Position numbers and translations under genes: made by a program. DNA of 23,159 nt, taken from IMG/VR virus record IMGVR_UViG_3300035670_001283, positions 1 through 23,159 of that record; one strand, written 5' to 3'. Under the pieces are notes generated by a model, which saw only the letters and a program-made list of their open reading frames with translations, was not told the DNA's origin and made no database searches. How positions within the stretch are numbered: the first letter of the stretch is position 1; each line of letters begins with the position of its first letter. The stretch comes from a virus. Positions 5,633 to 13,777 of this stretch are shown here, piece by piece.

Positions 5633-8455
5633 ATGGCAACTTACAAAGGCGAAGAAATTGACACACGACCGACGGCGGCAATGGCTGAGGAGGCGCAACG
5701 GGGACTTGACTGGCGTGCCGAGTTTGGGCGTGGTGGGACTGCGGTTGGTGTCGCTCGTGCGAACCAATTGCGTCGGCGCGAGGAACTTAGTGTCGATACC
5801 GTTCGACGTATGGCATCGTTCTTCGCGAGGCATGAAGTAGATGCAGAGGCAGAAGGCTTTCGCCCCGGCGAAGAGGGTTATCCATCTGCCGGACGTATTG
5901 CCCACGCTCTTTGGGGTGGGGACGCCGGCAAAAGCTGGGCAAATGAAAGGGTGAGCAGAATGGATACTATTGACAACCGAGCCGCACCGGATGCGCTATC
6001 AATTGGCGACTTTGTTCGCTGGGATTCTTCGGGCGGTCTCGCTCGGGGCCGGATTGAAAGAATCGTGCGGGATGGAGAAATCAACGTCCCCAACTCCGAC
6101 TTTACGGTGACCGGCACTCCTGAAGATCCCGCCGCTCTGATCCGGATTTTCCGAGAGAATGAAGAAGGGTGGTCACCGACTTCGGTCCGAGTGGGTCACA
6201 AATTCTCAACCCTCACCAAAATCGACGCTCTGCGGGGCTACACCGAGAAGCGACCGTATCCAAACGAACACGCCGCACGTTTAAGTGATCCCGATGAATA
6301 CGATAGTTTCCGCAGAGAAAACGACGCTGGTGGTGCGGGAATTGATTTTATTTACGGCATCAAAGAGGGCGAGAGCGAGCTTCAAGCGATCCGATTCGAC
6401 AAAGAAATGTTTTCGGTGGCTCAAGCTCAAGAATGGCTTGCGGAAAACGACTTTTCTCCGATATTATTCGAGGAAGCTATCGAAGAACGGAACCAATCAA
6501 TGCAAGCTATTGACAAGCGACATATAAAGAATATCGTCGAAACCGAGGACGAGGTCATTATTTCGTTTGCCAAAATGCACGACGAACCCACCGAGGAAGT
6601 CACCGAGGAAGTCGAAGGCGTGGCTGACTTGATTGAAAACGATATTTATGAGGGTTCTTTCTTTCCCGCAGAGAGGAAGGGCGAGAAACTCGTGCATCGT
6701 GCGGCTGATATGGAGGCCATTGTTGGCGAAGATCGCCGCGTGATGATGAGCGTATCTTCGGAAATGCCGGTCGAGAGACTCGGTGGAATGGAAATCTTAG
6801 ATCATTCTGAGGGCTCGATTGACTTGAGTTTCTTAAACTCCGGTCGGGCTCCCCTGCTTTTAGACCACGATCCGACCCAGCAGATCGGCGTGGTGGAGAA
6901 TGTAAGTCTCGATGGTGCGGCCCGTAAGTTACGGGCGAAGGTTCGCTTTGGAAAAGGTGAGCGGGCTAGCGAGGTTTATGATGACATTGTGGACGGTATT
7001 CGCGGCAACGTGAGCATCGGCTATTATGTCAAGAAAGTGTCGAAGATGGATGGCGGCTACCGCGCAACGTCTTGGCAACCTTTGGAGGTTTCAATCGTAT
7101 CTATTCCCGCTGACTCGTCAGTCGGCGTGGGTCGGTCGGCTGAGGCTCCGCAACCCGTTCGTATCGAAACCATTTCTCAAAAAGGAACTAATATGTCTGA
7201 GCAAAACACGGGCGCGGTCACCGCAGAGGCCGCAGTCGCAAAGCGCAACGCTGAACTCAAGCAGATTTCAGAGCTTGCCGCACGTCACAACAAATCTAAC
7301 CTCGTCGGCGACGCCATTGAGCGCGGCATGAGCTACCCCGAGTTTCAGGGCTACCTGCTCGAGCGTGGTCTTGACAAGCCTCTCCACGCTCCCGATGTTG
7401 ATCTCAACAAGTCAGAGCGTCAAACCTACTCACTTCTTCGCGCAATTGACTCGGTCGCCAAACACGGTCGCGTTATGGGCTTCGAAGGCGAGGTTTCGTC
7501 TGAGATCGCTCGCAAATCCGGCAAAGAGGCTCGCGGCTTTTATGTCCCTCAAGCTCTGTTCAGCAAGCGCGACATTCTGACAACGTCACCCGCTAACGGC
7601 TCCAACATCATCGCCGAAGATTATATGGCTGGTGAGTTTGTGGATGCTCTTCGCGCTAACCTCGTGATGGGTACTCTCGGTGCTCGCATGATGACCGGCC
7701 TCAAAGGTGATGTGGCAATTCCCAAAATGGGAACCACCGCAACCGTCGCTTTTGTTGCTGAAAATAGTGCTCCCTCCGAGTCTGCCCAAACGTTCTCGCA
7801 GATCACGATGGTTCCCCGCACTCTCGCTTCGTTTGTTGACATTTCCCGCAAGCTGGCGATCCAGTCGGACCCGAGCGTTGAGCAGATTCTTCGCGAAGAT
7901 ATGCTCCAGTCGTTTGCTCGCAAGATCGACGAGGTTGCTATTGAGGGCGGCGGTGCTAACGAGCCGACTGGTATTCTCGGCACGAACGGCATTGGCTCGG
8001 TTGCTATCGGTTCCAACGGTGGCGCGGTAACCTACGCAAAGCTGGTGCAACTCGAGCGCGAGGTTGCTATCGACAACGCTCTTAATGGTCGCCTCGGTTT
8101 CTTGACGAATGCCAAAGTGGTTGCGGCGATGAGGTCTATCTCACGTCAAGCGTCCGGCGTCGAGGGCAACTTCATTCTGAACGACACCAACACTCTGCTC
8201 GGCTACAACGTCACGAGCACTAATTTGGTTCCTTCAGACCTCACCAAAGGCACAACGTCGAACACCTGCTCGGCAGTTATCTTCGGCAACTTCGCTGACG
8301 TGCTTATCGGTATGTGGAATAGTCCTGATGTTTTGGTCGATCCTTATACTGGGTCTAGTGCTGGAACTATCCGTATTTCGGTGTTCCAAGAAGTCGACGT
8401 TAAGCTCCGTCACGCTGAGTCGTTCTCGGCGATCAAAGACGTCACAACGGTCTAG
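5633..8455 (+). CDS. Fusion of prohead protease and HK97-fold major capsid protein
   Basis: This 940-residue protein joins several parts. Residues 1-109 form a domain seen in phage proteases (DTRPT, GLDWRAEFGRGGTAVGVARA, FFARHEVD, PSAGRIAHALWGGDAG). Residues 120-197 look like the hypervirulence-associated Tudor-like domain (IGDFVRWDSSGG, EDPAALIRI). An acidic linker (about 280-330) precedes a serine protease of the HK97 gp4 type, with likely catalytic H412 (LLLDHDP), S461 (GNVSIGY) and the signature EVSIVSIPAD at 485-494. Residues 521-940 are the capsid protein: a helical scaffold-like N-arm, then the shell fold from about GFYVPQALFS (635). The protease would remove the N-arm in the prohead. 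An internal start at 7193 may also make capsid protein alone. Another Met with AAAGG upstream is at 5960. Confidence 0.93.
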   Translation: MATYKGEEIDTRPTAAMAEEAQRGLDWRAEFGRGGTAVGVARANQLRRREELSVDTVRRMASFFARHEVDAEAEGFRPGEEGYPSAGRIAHALWGGDAGKSWANERVSRMDTIDNRAAPDALSIGDFVRWDSSGGLARGRIERIVRDGEINVPNSDFTVTGTPEDPAALIRIFRENEEGWSPTSVRVGHKFSTLTKIDALRGYTEKRPYPNEHAARLSDPDEYDSFRRENDAGGAGIDFIYGIKEGESELQAIRFDKEMFSVAQAQEWLAENDFSPILFEEAIEERNQSMQAIDKRHIKNIVETEDEVIISFAKMHDEPTEEVTEEVEGVADLIENDIYEGSFFPAERKGEKLVHRAADMEAIVGEDRRVMMSVSSEMPVERLGGMEILDHSEGSIDLSFLNSGRAPLLLDHDPTQQIGVVENVSLDGAARKLRAKVRFGKGERASEVYDDIVDGIRGNVSIGYYVKKVSKMDGGYRATSWQPLEVSIVSIPADSSVGVGRSAEAPQPVRIETISQKGTNMSEQNTGAVTAEAAVAKRNAELKQISELAARHNKSNLVGDAIERGMSYPEFQGYLLERGLDKPLHAPDVDLNKSERQTYSLLRAIDSVAKHGRVMGFEGEVSSEIARKSGKEARGFYVPQALFSKRDILTTSPANGSNIIAEDYMAGEFVDALRANLVMGTLGARMMTGLKGDVAIPKMGTTATVAFVAENSAPSESAQTFSQITMVPRTLASFVDISRKLAIQSDPSVEQILREDMLQSFARKIDEVAIEGGGANEPTGILGTNGIGSVAIGSNGGAVTYAKLVQLEREVAIDNALNGRLGFLTNAKVVAAMRSISRQASGVEGNFILNDTNTLLGYNVTSTNLVPSDLTKGTTSNTCSAVIFGNFADVLIGMWNSPDVLVDPYTGSSAGTIRISVFQEVDVKLRHAESFSAIKDVTTV
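7182..7195 (+). promoter_or_regulatory. Internal ribosome binding site and ATG before the capsid domain
   Basis: AAGGA (7182-7186) stands six bases before an in-frame ATG (7193-7195), inside the protease-capsid fusion. The ATG falls exactly at the junction between the end of the protease domain and the capsid N-arm. The upstream reading frame does not need this purine-rich run for any recognisable motif. Confidence 0.6.
7193..8455 (+). CDS. Major capsid protein from the nested internal start
   Basis: If translation starts at the internal ATG, the product is a 420-residue HK97-fold capsid protein, a normal length for a stand-alone capsid gene with its N-terminal delta (scaffold) arm. Codon choice changes near this point by eye: CGC, CGT, GCT and CTC become common where the upstream part uses CGG, CGA and GCG. 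That is expected if only this part is made in very large amounts. A 1:1 protease:capsid fusion would make hundreds of proteases per head, so separate capsid synthesis makes sense. Lambda C/Nu3 is a known precedent for nested in-frame head genes. Not proven here. Confidence 0.5.
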   Translation: MSEQNTGAVTAEAAVAKRNAELKQISELAARHNKSNLVGDAIERGMSYPEFQGYLLERGLDKPLHAPDVDLNKSERQTYSLLRAIDSVAKHGRVMGFEGEVSSEIARKSGKEARGFYVPQALFSKRDILTTSPANGSNIIAEDYMAGEFVDALRANLVMGTLGARMMTGLKGDVAIPKMGTTATVAFVAENSAPSESAQTFSQITMVPRTLASFVDISRKLAIQSDPSVEQILREDMLQSFARKIDEVAIEGGGANEPTGILGTNGIGSVAIGSNGGAVTYAKLVQLEREVAIDNALNGRLGFLTNAKVVAAMRSISRQASGVEGNFILNDTNTLLGYNVTSTNLVPSDLTKGTTSNTCSAVIFGNFADVLIGMWNSPDVLVDPYTGSSAGTIRISVFQEVDVKLRHAESFSAIKDVTTV

Positions 8456-8508: not shown

Positions 8509-9045
8509 ATGCGATCTCTAAACAGTTACAAAGACATTCACAAAGGCGAGACGTGCGCCGTTCTCGGCGGTGCGGTAACTCTGCCGGCTGATCTGAGGGC
8601 GATACCGCAAGTCGATATTCTCATTGGGGTGAATCAACACGCGCTGATCCTCCCGCTCGACTATGTTTGCTTTCTCGACAGGCATATGTGGGACTATGTG
8701 GAGGGCTTTAGGGACATTCTGAAAGTCACGCCGCTCAACAAATTCGCAAGCCGAGACGACGTTATCCACGCGGGCGAAGCTCCTCCGATAGGCTTTTCGG
8801 GAGCTCTTGCGGTATGGGTGGCTGGGGTTATGGGGTTTGATCGGATTTATGTTTGCGGAATGGATCAATACGAGGATCGCGGTGACGGGCGAGAATATTG
8901 GTGGGAAGGACCGCAGACAAAACGGTCGGTCACACATACGACTGCGAGAGACAGTTTGCAAAGGTGGAAAGATTTCGTAAACAGTTTAGAATGTAAGGAC
9001 CGAGTGCAATTCGTCTCGGGCCGACTTAAGGAGCAAATCAAATGA
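8509..9045 (+). CDS. MptE/DUF115-like protein, possible sugar-modification enzyme
   Basis: This 178-residue protein has a Rossmann-like pattern of the DUF115/MptE-like type, related to motility accessory factor and sugar-transfer proteins. A first strand and glycine turn (TCAVLGGAVTLP, 15-26) is followed by VNQHALILPLDYVCFLDRHM (41-60) and GFSGALAVWVAGVMGFDRIYVCGMD (95-119). Its biochemical role in phages is unknown. Next to a glycosyltransferase and an FkbM methyltransferase it probably helps glycan modification. The ATG follows the terminator T-run directly with no Shine-Dalgarno sequence. No other ATG, GTG or TTG in frame could replace it without cutting the fold, and TGA closes the frame upstream. 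Confidence 0.7.
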   Translation: MRSLNSYKDIHKGETCAVLGGAVTLPADLRAIPQVDILIGVNQHALILPLDYVCFLDRHMWDYVEGFRDILKVTPLNKFASRDDVIHAGEAPPIGFSGALAVWVAGVMGFDRIYVCGMDQYEDRGDGREYWWEGPQTKRSVTHTTARDSLQRWKDFVNSLECKDRVQFVSGRLKEQIK

Positions 9046-9263
9046 AGGTTGAAATCATTTCGGCGGTACATTGGGATGGTCACCACCGCGAGAGCGGCGA
9101 CGTCATCGAAGTGAAAGAGTGGGACGCCAATTGGCTGATCTCCCGCAAGAAGGCGAAACCCTATGATGGGACCGCACCGATCATCAATCGAGTGGTCGCA
9201 CTTGAGACGAGCGAGCAACCAAAGCTGACAAAGCGAACGTGGAAAAAGTCGTCTGTGTTCTAA
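9042..9263 (+). CDS. Small conserved phage protein
   Basis: This 73-residue protein begins MKVEIISAVHWDGHHRESGD and continues WLISRKKAKPYDG. The pattern resembles a small beta-barrel-like protein common in phage head-neck regions (a KVEI..V..DG....GDVVEV form), whose role I cannot name. A perfect AAGGAG lies nine bases before the ATG, which overlaps the previous stop (ATGA). The C-terminus (about 55-73) is basic and likely disordered, and overlaps the glycosyltransferase start by 25 bases. Confidence 0.7.
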   Translation: MKVEIISAVHWDGHHRESGDVIEVKEWDANWLISRKKAKPYDGTAPIINRVVALETSEQPKLTKRTWKKSSVF

Positions 9264-9823
9264 GATCGGGAGGCGAGTATAAGCCCGAGCACGTCTACAA
9301 GCTCAAAAAGATGGTGGATGAGCACGTCGGCCTACCTTTTTACTGTTTGTCCGATCAACCGCTTGATTGTGCTTACCTGCCGATGGCCCAAAAATGGCCT
9401 AAGTGGTGGGCGAAAATGGAGCTCTTTAGGCTCCGGCCTCCGGTGCTTTACCTCGATCTCGACACGATTATTAGAGGGACTCCGACCTTTTTGGAAGAAA
9501 TGCGGTCCAAAGATTTCGTTATCATGCGCGACGTTTATCGGGGCAAGCGGGATCACAAAGCGATGCAGTCGTCGATTATGTACTGGCAGATCGACATGAC
9601 GTGGCTTTATGATCGCTATATGGATCAACCCGACTTTAAGGACGCCGGCGGCGATCAGTCTTACATTGAGCAGAATGTTCGTGCGGAATACTTTCAAGAC
9701 TTCACAAACGAAGTGGTTTCCTATAAGGCCGACGTCTGCAAGCGCGGTCCTTTTCCTTCAGATAAGGTGGTGATTTTTCATGGACAACCTCGACCGTGGG
9801 AACAAGCAATTCTCCCTTATTAA
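9239..9823 (+). CDS. Glycosyltransferase-like protein with DxD motif
   Basis: This 194-residue protein matches small GT-A-type nucleotide-sugar transferases found in phages. It has an N-terminal strand (EKVVCVLRSGGEY), then CLSD (36-39), WWAKMELFRL (56-65), and VLYLDLDTII (69-78) with the DLD metal and sugar-nucleotide motif at 73-75. GGDQSYIEQ (137-145) and the closing IFHGQPRPWE (179-188) complete the pattern. It probably transfers a sugar to a protein or glycan; the substrate cannot be read from sequence. The start is GTG at 9239, with no strong ribosome site, inside the end of the previous gene. Translational coupling is likely. Confidence 0.8.
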   Translation: MEKVVCVLRSGGEYKPEHVYKLKKMVDEHVGLPFYCLSDQPLDCAYLPMAQKWPKWWAKMELFRLRPPVLYLDLDTIIRGTPTFLEEMRSKDFVIMRDVYRGKRDHKAMQSSIMYWQIDMTWLYDRYMDQPDFKDAGGDQSYIEQNVRAEYFQDFTNEVVSYKADVCKRGPFPSDKVVIFHGQPRPWEQAILPY

Positions 9824-10427
9824 TAAATCGGGGTGGTGGGTTCCCGAGGCAGATGCGTGTTGCTTTCAGATCGTACAAAGGGAGGTCAATGATCTCCAGC
9901 AAATCCTACCGCTCTGCCGCGACTTTCGTCGGGTTGTTCAAGCTGGCGGCAACATCGGAATATGGCCCAAACGACTCGCTTACGACTTTGAAACAGTATC
10001 AACATTTGAACCAGATCCGGCGAATTATTGTGCGCTCGTGGAGAACACCAAAGAGATCGACAACATCGTCGCGACCAATGCGGCCCTCGGGGATTGTGCG
10101 ACTCGTGCGGGAATCGACCATATTGACCCGCAGAATATTGGCGCGCATCAAATCAAAGAGGGCAACGACTTCGACGTGCTGACGGTGGACTCATTTGGCT
10201 GGGAGGACGTTGACCTGCTCCAATTGGACGTGGAGGGGTTCGAGCACTTCGCGATTTTGGGTGCGGCTGAGACCATCCAACGCTCGGGGCCGGTGATCGT
10301 TTTAGAGCTCAAAGGGCTGGGCAAAAGGTACGGCGTAGAAGACTCGGAAACGGTCGATTTTCTTGCCGGTTTGGGGTATAAGGTAACAAACAGAATACAC
10401 CGCGACGTTATTTTTACGAGGGCATGA
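9780..10427 (+). CDS. FkbM-family methyltransferase
   Basis: This 215-residue protein is an S-adenosylmethionine-dependent methyltransferase of the FkbM type, often found methylating sugars or glycans. RVVQAGGNIGIWPKRLA (51-67) is motif I and FEPDP (76-80) is the acidic ribose-binding strand. DLLQLDVEGFEHFAILGAA (145-163) followed by PVIVLELKG (171-179) is the characteristic FkbM core. Motif I has Q-A-G-G where D-x-G-A is usual, a small deviation. The gene overlaps the glycosyltransferase by 44 bases, making a three-enzyme unit with it and the MptE-like gene. Confidence 0.88.
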   Translation: MDNLDRGNKQFSLINKSGWWVPEADACCFQIVQREVNDLQQILPLCRDFRRVVQAGGNIGIWPKRLAYDFETVSTFEPDPANYCALVENTKEIDNIVATNAALGDCATRAGIDHIDPQNIGAHQIKEGNDFDVLTVDSFGWEDVDLLQLDVEGFEHFAILGAAETIQRSGPVIVLELKGLGKRYGVEDSETVDFLAGLGYKVTNRIHRDVIFTRA

Positions 10428-10735
10428 TGGCAGTCGAAAGCGCAGACGATAGAGCGATTTTTGTTGGGATTGACGACTTCGGCACGAGTGCGACGTTTAC
10501 CCATTCCGGTACACCGTCAACTGTTTCGGGCATTTTCGACAACGATTTCATTGAGGTTGATGCCGGCGGCGGGGTTCCATTTGCGATGCAACAACCGCGT
10601 TTTGTTTGCCGGACCTCTGACGTCTCCACCGCAGTCGAAGACGATACGCTTGTGATCTCCGCAGTCACCTACAAAATAAAGGTGCGGCAAGATGACGGGA
10701 CCGGCATGACCACGCTTATTTTGGAGAAACAGTAG
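10424..10735 (+). CDS. Head-tail attachment protein (lambda FII-like)
   Basis: This 103-residue protein sits between the capsid/accessory block and the tail genes, as lambda FII does. The pattern matches: an opening DDFGTSATFTHSGTPSTVSG, a strand IFDNDFIEVDAGGG, then PRFVCRTSDVS and a short final beta-hairpin (YKIKVRQDDGTGMTTLILE). The FII protein caps the portal channel and forms the tail docking surface. It may begin at either of two adjacent ATGs (10424 or 10427); the first overlaps the previous TGA. It shares one base with the next gene. Confidence 0.8.
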   Translation: MMAVESADDRAIFVGIDDFGTSATFTHSGTPSTVSGIFDNDFIEVDAGGGVPFAMQQPRFVCRTSDVSTAVEDDTLVISAVTYKIKVRQDDGTGMTTLILEKQ

Positions 10736-11222: not shown

Positions 11223-11612
11223 ATGGCAACGCATAAGGGTTCAGAGGGTACGGTAAAAAGCGGTGCAAACGCTATTGCCGAAATCCGCAGTTATACAATA
11301 ACCGAGACCGCTGACGTTCTCGAAGACACGACGATGGGCGACACCTCCCGCACCTATCTCTCGTCGCTGAAGACCTTCACCGGTTCGATTGACTGTTTTT
11401 GGGATGAGACCGACACGAACGGACAACTTACGCTTGATCCCGGAAGCTCGGTCACGATCAACATTTACCCCGAGGGAAGCACCAGCGGAGACACCTATTA
11501 CACCGGTACGGTTCTCATCACAGAGAAATCCATTACCGCAAGTTTCGACGGAATGGTCGAGGCGAGCTTCAGCTTTCAGGGAACCGGCGCACTTTCTGAG
11601 ACGACGGTCTAA
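11223..11612 (+). CDS. Major tail (tube) protein
   Basis: This 129-residue protein matches phage tail tube proteins. It starts MATHKGSEGTVKSGANAIAE, with TITETADVLEDTTMGDT, SIDCFWDETDTNG, INIYPEGST and a closing SFSFQGTG, the usual order of strands in this family. Many copies stack as hexameric rings around the tape measure to form the tube. It has the strongest ribosome site of the tail block (AAAGGAG at 11208-11214) and is one of the few genes here with a real upstream gap, which fits a need for high expression. It ends in a TAATG overlap with gpG. Confidence 0.92.
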   Translation: MATHKGSEGTVKSGANAIAEIRSYTITETADVLEDTTMGDTSRTYLSSLKTFTGSIDCFWDETDTNGQLTLDPGSSVTINIYPEGSTSGDTYYTGTVLITEKSITASFDGMVEASFSFQGTGALSETTV

Positions 11613-11953
11613 TGAGTCTCGGAGCCAAAATCGCCGCTCGGCGGCAACACAAGCGGGTTTGCGTCATCGTTCCCGAGTGGGGCGAAGATGGACCGCTGGA
11701 ACTGTTTGCGGGTGCTCTAACGTGCTACGACCTCGACCGAATTCAGAAAAAGCACAAAGATTTTCTGAGCTCACAGAGTATCGAGGGAATGGTGGATCTC
11801 ATTATTCTTAAGGCCGAGAACGGAGACGGTGATCGGTTGTTCACGCTTGAGGACAAGCCTCATTTAATGCGGGAACCTTTGTCGGTGGTGACGAGGGTTG
11901 CGGCTGAAATGATGGGCTCGGTCACAAGCATTGAGGACCACGAAAAAAACTGA
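11612..11953 (+). CDS. Tail assembly chaperone, short form (gpG-like)
   Basis: This 113-residue protein between the tail tube and tape measure genes takes the place of lambda gpG. Such chaperones coat the tape measure protein and recruit tube subunits, and are not in the finished virion. It ends ...SIEDHEKN at a TGA placed immediately after an A-AAA-AAC slippery heptamer, so the short form is made when ribosomes do not shift. The longer shifted form is listed separately. The acidic helical middle and position agree with the family. Confidence 0.85.
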   Translation: MSLGAKIAARRQHKRVCVIVPEWGEDGPLELFAGALTCYDLDRIQKKHKDFLSSQSIEGMVDLIILKAENGDGDRLFTLEDKPHLMREPLSVVTRVAAEMMGSVTSIEDHEKN

Positions 11954-12117
11954 AAAGCGATTCGCTGAGGTTTAACCTCATCGCCTTAGCGGATCGCTTG
12001 CACAAGAGCATTTCGGAGATGGAGCAGATCACGCTCGATGAGTTTAATGAGTGGATGGCGTTTTTCAGACTGAGAGACAATGAACGAAACCCAAATCCGA
12101 ATAAGCGCAATAGATAA
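11612..12117 (+). CDS. Tail assembly chaperone, -1 frameshift form (gpGT-like)
   Basis: After a -1 shift on AAAAAAC (11944-11950), reading continues CTG AAA AGC... for 55 further codons to TAA at 12115-12117, giving about 168 residues. The extension is protein-like (LKSDSLRFNLIALADRLHKS, then ISEMEQITLDEFNEWMAFFR) and matches the helical T-type extension of chaperones in many siphophages, which binds tube subunits. It is too short and lacks a start for separate translation, so frameshifting is the natural reading. Its end overlaps the tape measure start by 38 bases, as T and H do in lambda. Confidence 0.88.
11944..11997 (+). promoter_or_regulatory. Programmed -1 ribosomal frameshift signal
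   Basis: The slippery heptamer A-AAA-AAC (11944-11950) is in the correct phase and is followed directly by the zero-frame stop TGA. Six bases after the heptamer begins a strong structure. Its outer stem is GCGATTCGCT (11957-11966) with AGCGGATCGC (11988-11997), one G-U pair. An inner hairpin GAGG-TTTAA-CCTC (11967-11979) is stacked inside it. Spacing and stability fit known stimulatory elements. Known family behaviour (gpG/gpGT) supports function. Confidence 0.88.
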
Positions 12118-13777
12118 CACGAAGAAGGCTTTTGACTCAATTCGTGGAAATCTTGCGGGGCTTAAGGATCAAGTCTTTTCAGTTAAGGGGGCTATTGCTG
12201 GCCTCGTGAGCGGTGCGGTCGGAACCGGATTCTTACAAGCAAACCGTTCGTTTCAATCTCTACAAGCCTCACTAATTACCTTTACCGGTTCCGCAGAGGC
12301 GGCAAATGCTCAGTTTGCGGTACTGCAAGAATTTGCTAAGACAACCCCGTTTGGTCTTGAGGAGGTTGTCGGCGGTTTCAACAAGCTGGTTGCGCGGGGT
12401 ATGCAACCCACCATTGAGTCGTTTCAAGCCTTTGGAAATATTGCGGCGGGAACCGGTAAATCGCTAGATCAGTTTATCGAGGCGGTCGCGGATGCGGTCA
12501 CCGGTGAGTTTGAGCGACTAAAAGAGTTTGGCGTAAAGGCAAGCAAAGAAGGCGATAACGTCAAGTTTACGTTTGGCGGCATGACCACCGCAGTCGCAAA
12601 CAATGCAACCGCGATTGAAGGCTACCTTCGGACATTGGGCGAGACTAAATTCGGCGGGGCGATTCTCCGACAAGCTGACACGCTCAACGGCGCGATCTCG
12701 AATCTCGGCGACTCATTCTTTCAACTAGCGACCGCGATTGGTGAGAGTGGCGTGAATAATGCACTCGTCGCCATCATCCGGAATATGTCCGAATTTGCCA
12801 ACATTCTGACCGGTGCTTTTAAGCCGGAAAACGAAAAGCGGATCAACAAGCTCCAACTCGGCATTAATGAACTTAGCAACGCATTGGCAAAGATTGATGC
12901 GAGAGAATCAAAGGGACTCGGTGACATTGTTGACCGCAACCGAATCCAACAACAATTAGATATCCTAAAGGCAGAGCAAAAAGAGCTTAAAAAGTATGAG
13001 GCTTCGCTAAATACAGTCGCTCAAACGCGGGACAAAGTCACTAAGCCGCAAGAGGATGGTGGCAAGAAAAAGCTATTTCCCGACCTCATCCCGTTTATGG
13101 ATGCGGCGAAGGAAAAAATACGAGAGCTCGACGAGGCTTTTGCATTAGAAAATCCTCCCGAGATTATTGGATTCTTCGACGCAATCAAAGAGCGGATTGA
13201 CGACTTCGACTACGACAACATTAAAGGCGGCAAGACCGCACTTGAGCAATATGCACTTGCGGCTCGCAATCTTAGTAACCAATTGGATAATGTTGCGGTC
13301 CGAAGTTTGCAGGGCTTAGAGGACGCTCTTGCTGGGGTCTTTATGGGAACGGTTACGGTCAAAGATGCGTTTAGGTCGCTGGCGACCAGCATCATTTCGG
13401 ACCTCATTCGGATCTATATTCAGAGGACCATCACCGGCCCGATTGCTGACGCTATTTTTGGACCTCTACAAACTGCGGGGGTTTCCGCTCGTGCGATGGG
13501 CGGTCCGGTCTCAGTCAACCGACCTTATATGGTTGGCGAGCGGGGGCCGGAGTTATTTGTGCCAAATTCAAGTGGCTCAATCGTCGCAAACAATAAACTT
13601 GAGGGTGGTGGAGGTGGTACTGTAGTGGTCAACCAAACGATCAACCTCTCTGCGGGAGTCTCGCAGACTGTACGGGCTGAAGTGATGAATATGATGCCAA
13701 AGATTTTGGACGCGACTAAGGGTGCGGTCGCAGATGCGAAGCGACGCGGTGGAACATTTGCGAAGGCGTTTGTGTGA
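12080..13777 (+). CDS. Tape measure protein
   Basis: This 565-residue protein sets tail length and is threaded through the tube. It opens with a helical repeat-like start (IRISAIDNTKKAFDSIRGNL), then a Gly/Ala-rich hydrophobic segment (GAIAGLVSGAVGTGF, about 37-52). The core typical of lambda-like tape measures follows: FQSLQASLITFTGSAEAAN, EFAKTTPFGLEEVVGGFNKL, TGEFERLKEFGVKA. The C-terminus has the usual glycine-rich signature (GGPVSVNRPYMVGERGPELF, then GGGGGTVVVNQTINL). At about 1.5 angstrom per residue the tail would be near 85 nm, a rough estimate. The start lies inside the chaperone extension with a weak GAGAG ribosome site. Confidence 0.93.
   Translation: MNETQIRISAIDNTKKAFDSIRGNLAGLKDQVFSVKGAIAGLVSGAVGTGFLQANRSFQSLQASLITFTGSAEAANAQFAVLQEFAKTTPFGLEEVVGGFNKLVARGMQPTIESFQAFGNIAAGTGKSLDQFIEAVADAVTGEFERLKEFGVKASKEGDNVKFTFGGMTTAVANNATAIEGYLRTLGETKFGGAILRQADTLNGAISNLGDSFFQLATAIGESGVNNALVAIIRNMSEFANILTGAFKPENEKRINKLQLGINELSNALAKIDARESKGLGDIVDRNRIQQQLDILKAEQKELKKYEASLNTVAQTRDKVTKPQEDGGKKKLFPDLIPFMDAAKEKIRELDEAFALENPPEIIGFFDAIKERIDDFDYDNIKGGKTALEQYALAARNLSNQLDNVAVRSLQGLEDALAGVFMGTVTVKDAFRSLATSIISDLIRIYIQRTITGPIADAIFGPLQTAGVSARAMGGPVSVNRPYMVGERGPELFVPNSSGSIVANNKLEGGGGGTVVVNQTINLSAGVSQTVRAEVMNMMPKILDATKGAVADAKRRGGTFAKAFV

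Follow-up and report, generated by a model that had tools for sequence, protein, structure and literature searches.

Genes and features at the locus

The window, by which we mean the whole stretch of viral DNA that was analysed (an IMG/VR virus record of 23,159 bases), carries a tail terminator, a tail tube protein, gene G and a tape measure protein in this order. The tail terminator was assigned to PHROG 4204 by profile search, and the other features of the junction are collected in Table 1. The G/T gene pair lies between the tail tube and tape measure genes, which is the lambda-type G/GT layout, and the end of T shares 38 bases with the tape measure gene.

Table 1. Features of the gene G/T junction and the adjoining tail genes
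Feature	Positions	Strand	Evidence or remark
Tail tube protein	11223-11612	+	PHROG 1407 (8e-16); Phage_tail_2 (weak)
Gene G, tail assembly chaperone (predicted), 0-frame product of 113 aa	11612-11953	+	ORF; PHROG 344; fold model
Shine-Dalgarno-like GAGG, probable 5' stimulator	11933-11936	+	motif spacing; GAG codon bias
Slippery heptamer A_AAA_AAC	11944-11950	+	sequence; canonical heptamer in relatives
0-frame stop TGA, directly 3' of the heptamer	11951-11953	+	sequence
T extension in the -1 frame, 55 codons plus TAA (12115-12117)	11950-12117	+	sequence; protein conservation; PHROG 337
5' arm of 17-pair stem	11955-11971	+	MFE fold; synonymous-recoding test; covariation
Alternative local hairpin GAGG/CCTC (nested hairpin of the first-pass annotation)	11967-11979	+	competes with the top of the long stem
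11-base loop of stem	11972-11982	+	MFE fold
3' arm of 17-pair stem	11983-11999	+	MFE fold; covariation
Tape measure protein, lambda-type	12080-13777	+	Tape_meas_lam_C (8e-13); TMP_3 (1.5e-11); PHROG 1716 (3e-59)

The G protein of the window by itself has no Pfam match and matches PHROG 344 (tail assembly chaperone) weakly (1e-3); 12 of 16 members of the G family match that profile, the best at 1.3e-7. Similarly, PHROG 337 (tail protein) is matched by the T extension of 12 of 14 members, the best at 5e-7, while matches of the extension to Campylobacter phages (E 0.6) were taken as chance. The structure model of G (pLDDT 83), in which residues 104-113 leading into the slippery site are disordered, has as its best solved-structure match the HK97 tail assembly chaperone gp13 (PDB 2OB9; chain 2OB9_B, E 7.9e-4, TM ~0.6). 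It differs from gp13 in sequence, with 18% identity and nothing significant in a PDB sequence search with the G profile. By profile and modelled fold, the product of gene G is thus predicted to be a tail assembly chaperone.

The slippery junction and its two reading frames

The last codons of gene G are GAA AAA AAC TGA, so A_AAA_AAC stands in the phase required for a -1 slip. The heptamer touches the zero-frame stop, as the first-pass annotation of this DNA had claimed, and it is the sole A_AAA_AAC on the plus strand of the window. After a slip, the -1 frame would continue with CTG (from 11950) AAA AGC GAT TCG, giving a predicted GT fusion of 168 residues with the junction HEKN-LKSDS. The same annotation had described the -1 extension as a protein-like stretch of 55 residues, and this is what we found: the frame is open to its TAA, and an alignment of relatives shows that the extension is conserved as protein. 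Independent initiation of T appears unlikely from the reading frames, because no ATG lies near the start of T and its frame is closed by stops just 5' of the heptamer, of which the nearest is a TGA at 11932. The expectation that gene callers would list the 0-frame form only is borne out by deposited Roseobacter and Pelagibacter phage records, which show the chaperone and then the tape measure gene with nothing between.

Conservation of the junction among relatives

Relatives were gathered by G and T protein searches of IMG/VR, named phages and one bacterial genome. Both parts were recognised in 525 loci, and in every one of them the T region lies in the -1 frame relative to G; about 80 of these loci were found by a DNA-pattern scan for which the heptamer was a requirement. 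Among the 445 loci selected by protein, all have a canonical heptamer at the junction; it is mostly A_AAA_AAC, with A_AAA_AAT in 8 and G_GGA_AAC in 31. Many of the contigs are near-copies, and the distinct junction sequences number 300 in all; in every one of them the zero-frame stop is adjacent to the heptamer or one codon later. Hundreds of relatives thus conserve the heptamer, the stop and the extension, and together with the gene order, the PHROG 344 and 337 matches and the fold match to 2OB9, this supports the earlier reading of the pair as gpG and gpGT.

A different origin of the long form is conceivable, namely RNA polymerase slipping on the seven-A run during transcription, in place of ribosomal frameshifting. 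The heptamer does lie within A7 in 263 of the 300 unique junctions. However, 16 unique junctions have G_GGA_AAC with no A run longer than three and another 20 have A6 only, with the -1 layout unchanged, and we therefore reject transcriptional slippage as very unlikely. Transcriptional slippage in bacteria has been described for runs of 9 (PMC5009743), and a selected downstream RNA hairpin and a Shine-Dalgarno-like site, both presented below, make sense for ribosomes.

Several groups of relatives show variations of the junction. One subgroup (L108, L112, L139, L141, L150, L176 and L196) has G_GGA_AAC one codon before the stop, and in some G_GGA_AAC members a shorter outer stem encloses a perfect nested hairpin (ATGAGGTTYAACCTCAT), a different geometry at the same site. 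A distant relative, Sinorhizobium phage phi3LM21 (L537, positions 1492-1504), was seen by eye to have A_AAA_AAC GAC TGA at the corresponding junction and a -1 extension that matches; in its deposited annotation, T is a separate hypothetical protein. The Roseobacter CRP-822-type phages (PMC12629253) share with the window a homologous chaperone (45-49% identity), an A_AAA_AAC-stop junction and a homologous -1 extension, but that extension is unannotated in their records, and frameshifting is unmentioned in the paper on the group (PMC12629253). They also differ in having no equivalent hairpin, while the slippery site and GAGG are kept.

A selected hairpin downstream of the slippery site

The minimum-energy fold downstream of the heptamer is a continuous stem of 17 pairs (-27.3 kcal/mol). 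The first-pass annotation had proposed instead 10 pairs (11957-11966 with 11988-11997) enclosing a nested hairpin of 4 pairs (11967-11970 with 11976-11979). The complementarity for this form is present, but at -19.0 kcal/mol it is about 8 kcal/mol weaker than the long stem, and the best 12+5 form reaches only -22.5 kcal/mol. In the alignment of relatives, moreover, the nested GAGG/CCTC pairs are kept in 59.5% of cells versus 89.3% for the outer stem. Being both weaker and less conserved, the 10+4 form was rejected as the main fold.

Whether such a stem is selected can be judged from synonymous recodings that keep the T protein and the codon usage of the window. None of 2000 recodings folds as stably as the window hairpin (z = -5.9), which also ranks first in stability among the 9244 stretches of 50 bases that were sampled from the two strands. 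The recoding test was run on 74 non-redundant relatives, which fall into two branches. In the branch with LADRL-type extensions (the LADR branch, with DR at extension codons 15-16), the mean z is -3.2 and 55 of 63 relatives pass at 5%. In the branch without DR (LAELL, LASHL and similar, including the Roseobacter CRP phages), 1 of 11 relatives passes, at a mean z of -0.57. The stem-loop is thus under selection in the window and the LADR branch, and selection on it was not found in the LAELL/LASHL branch. The hairpin is not strictly required for the mechanism, because the sister branch keeps the slippery site without it.

An Rfam search over 11600-12300 gave no family match; a single sub-threshold hit lay elsewhere, at 11624-11652. 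A role of the hairpin as a terminator was considered and dropped, with no terminator-like site nearby on the plus strand.

Covariation in the stem

Stem covariation in related phages, which the first-pass annotation had named as a check, was found, and the relatives covary as the long 17-pair stem. Codon 5 of the extension varies (Pro/Ser, Gln/His or Leu), and in 185 of 213 unique rows its middle base pairs with the Ala-14 wobble base (GCG, GCT or GCA). Corrected with a tree built from the upstream G sequence only, 5.5-6.2 independent pairs change in the same way and 0 in the opposite way (median p 0.031), and control pairs of the same two codons show no trend. Codon 3 and the wobble base of Arg-16 go in the same direction, more weakly. 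Further up the stem, GCG at Ala-12 accompanies CGC at Arg-7 in 21 of 22 rows versus 12 of 159 rows with other Arg codons (Fisher 5e-18, uncorrected for relatedness); after tree correction, 5.1 pairs go the same way and 0.2 the opposite way (median p 0.06, near the floor for six pairs). This last pair is synonymous on both sides and supports, from the aligned codons, the upper part of the long stem over the nested hairpin. The tree-corrected significance of any single covarying pair is moderate only.

When the window is aligned with L213, a prophage closely related to it, 15 of the 17 stem pairs are retained. One of these is a complete compensatory exchange (G-C to C-G), and in four others a change on one side still allows pairing; the two A-U pairs at the base are gone. 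RNAalifold on the gap-free alignment of 55 relatives yields a weak consensus (5 pairs, -0.99 kcal/mol), since the register of the upper stem differs from one relative to the next, and it was set aside as stand-alone evidence.

These data bear on three other views of the hairpin. It might be a mere by-product of the conserved protein sequence (DPLR...ALADRL) and not a selected RNA structure: GAT encodes Asp-4 and GAT CG belongs to Asp-Arg-15/16, and part of the pairing (GAT with ATC) is therefore fixed by the protein. Synonymous recodings nevertheless lose the stem, in the window as in the 63 LADR relatives, and wobble bases covary in it; the recoding tests and the covariation together refute the by-product view for the family, leaving it extremely unlikely.

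A second view is that the stem alternates between two states, the 17-pair helix and the nested GAGG/CCTC hairpin, thereby tuning the shift rate. Both pairings are possible in the window and in close relatives (AGGTTTAACCT), and the nested hairpin is perfect in the fold of the G_GGA_AAC subgroup, but the energy deficit and poorer retention of the nested pairs given above count against it, and we hold such switching to be decidedly improbable.

Thirdly, the stimulator could be an RNA pseudoknot in which loop bases pair downstream of the stem, a point that the first-pass annotation had left open. The loop of the window contains CTCATCG, which can pair with CGATGAG near 12035-12041, about 35 bases past the stem, and 10 of 300 recodings do as well. 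This candidate is specific to the window: in 64 relatives, pairing of the loop with downstream sequence does not exceed that of synonymous recodings (mean z -0.19, with 5 of 64 passing at 5%), and the loop's best partner changes position from one relative to another. A conserved pseudoknot is thus unsupported, and we consider a pseudoknot stimulator quite unlikely; in having no conserved loop-to-downstream helix, the signal also differs from pseudoknot-stimulated ones. We return below to the plain 17-pair hairpin.

The upstream Shine-Dalgarno-like site

The GAGG upstream of the heptamer fits the spacing at which Shine-Dalgarno-like sites are stimulatory (as defined in PMC4066793), and a motif of this kind lies at the stimulatory distance in 264 of the 300 unique junctions. 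Part of it is fixed by the protein, in which Glu is followed by Asp or Glu. The codon for Glu-108 is GAG in 59 of 65 relatives, as opposed to 231 of 599 other Glu codons (p 8e-17, uncorrected for relatedness), a bias that points to selection on the GAG codon.

Proposed mechanism

With high confidence, we predict that the junction directs programmed -1 ribosomal frameshifting of the lambda G/GT type. The majority of ribosomes would read gene G to its TGA and release the 113-residue chaperone. A minority would slip back by one base: the GAGG probably holds the ribosome from behind, the 17-pair hairpin, starting 4-6 bases downstream, would resist it in front, and the Lys and Asn tRNAs on A_AAA_AAC would re-pair as AAA AAA. 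Translation of 55 more codons would then yield GT, with 168 residues. The lambda system suggests that G may coat the tape measure protein and that the few GT molecules may recruit the tail tube subunit; mature lambda virions contain neither G nor GT (PMC5009743).

In E. coli, A_AAA_AAC shifts inefficiently, yet insertion elements make use of it (PMC4066793). Such a weak site fits a need for strong stimulators and a low share of GT. As a tentative and rather speculative extension, the relatives may represent one chaperone family with two routes of stimulation (a strong selected hairpin together with a Shine-Dalgarno-like site, or the Shine-Dalgarno-like site without a hairpin), in which the top of the hairpin in the window's group might alternate between two exclusive pairings and so tune the ratio of G to GT.

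Comparison with known systems

The heptamer of lambda is G_GGA_AAG, whereas it is A_AAA_AAC here. Otherwise the resemblance to lambda G/GT is close: the location before the tape measure gene, the short G product, the -1 extension overlapping the next gene, the canonical X_XXY_YYZ heptamer and the chaperone role suggested by fold and profile are all the same. The extension here is only 46-56 residues long, however, and the heptamer is flanked by a strong selected hairpin and a Shine-Dalgarno-like site, which are further differences. The lambda frameshift and its relatives in long-tailed phages are attributed to Xu, Hendrix and Duda (2004), as cited in PMC5009743.

The order of the signals recalls E. 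coli dnaX, which has a Shine-Dalgarno-like site upstream, an A_AAA_AAN heptamer and a stem-loop a few bases downstream. In dnaX the heptamer is A_AAA_AAG, shifting reaches ~50% and the product is shorter (PMC5009743), while a longer product is predicted here. Since the heptamer is A_AAA_AAC and not A_AAA_AAG, the working would be dnaX-like although this is not a dnaX element. The junction is consequently best described as belonging, on good evidence, to the known lambda-type G/GT class, with its signals arranged as in dnaX.

To our knowledge, tail-chaperone frameshifts are widespread, usually without a demonstrated stimulator, and the fusion is missed by gene callers. What is new is the evidence, at the level of the family, that one branch has a selected hairpin and another lacks it: 300 distinct junctions of a single family provide direct evolutionary evidence for a stimulatory hairpin. 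The contrast between the branches amounts to a natural experiment on the trade-off among hairpin, Shine-Dalgarno-like site and heptamer, and the findings offer annotators of these marine phages an easy rule by which the absent GT protein can be added.

Host and other parts of the window

A prophage in the last ~27 kb of a 582-kb bacterial contig (JAGYIT010000017.1; L213, L534-L536) of the Akkermansiaceae MAG M30B22 is collinear with most of the window at ~82-92% DNA identity, and murA and ilvC lie further in on that contig. Assuming that the contig assembly is not chimeric, this suggests a host in Verrucomicrobiota. The named relatives of the phage infect Roseobacter.

Within the head/connector module, positions 8509-10427 of the window hold a block of non-structural genes, comprising a 178-aa ORF of unknown type, a glycosyltransferase-like ORF recognised by eye and an FkbM-family methyltransferase (1e-13); about 9303-10524 of that block is without alignment to the otherwise collinear Akkermansiaceae prophage. 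At 5633-8455, a 940-aa ORF apparently joins a prohead-protease-like part and the major capsid protein in one frame, and relatives likewise annotate a single very long major capsid gene.
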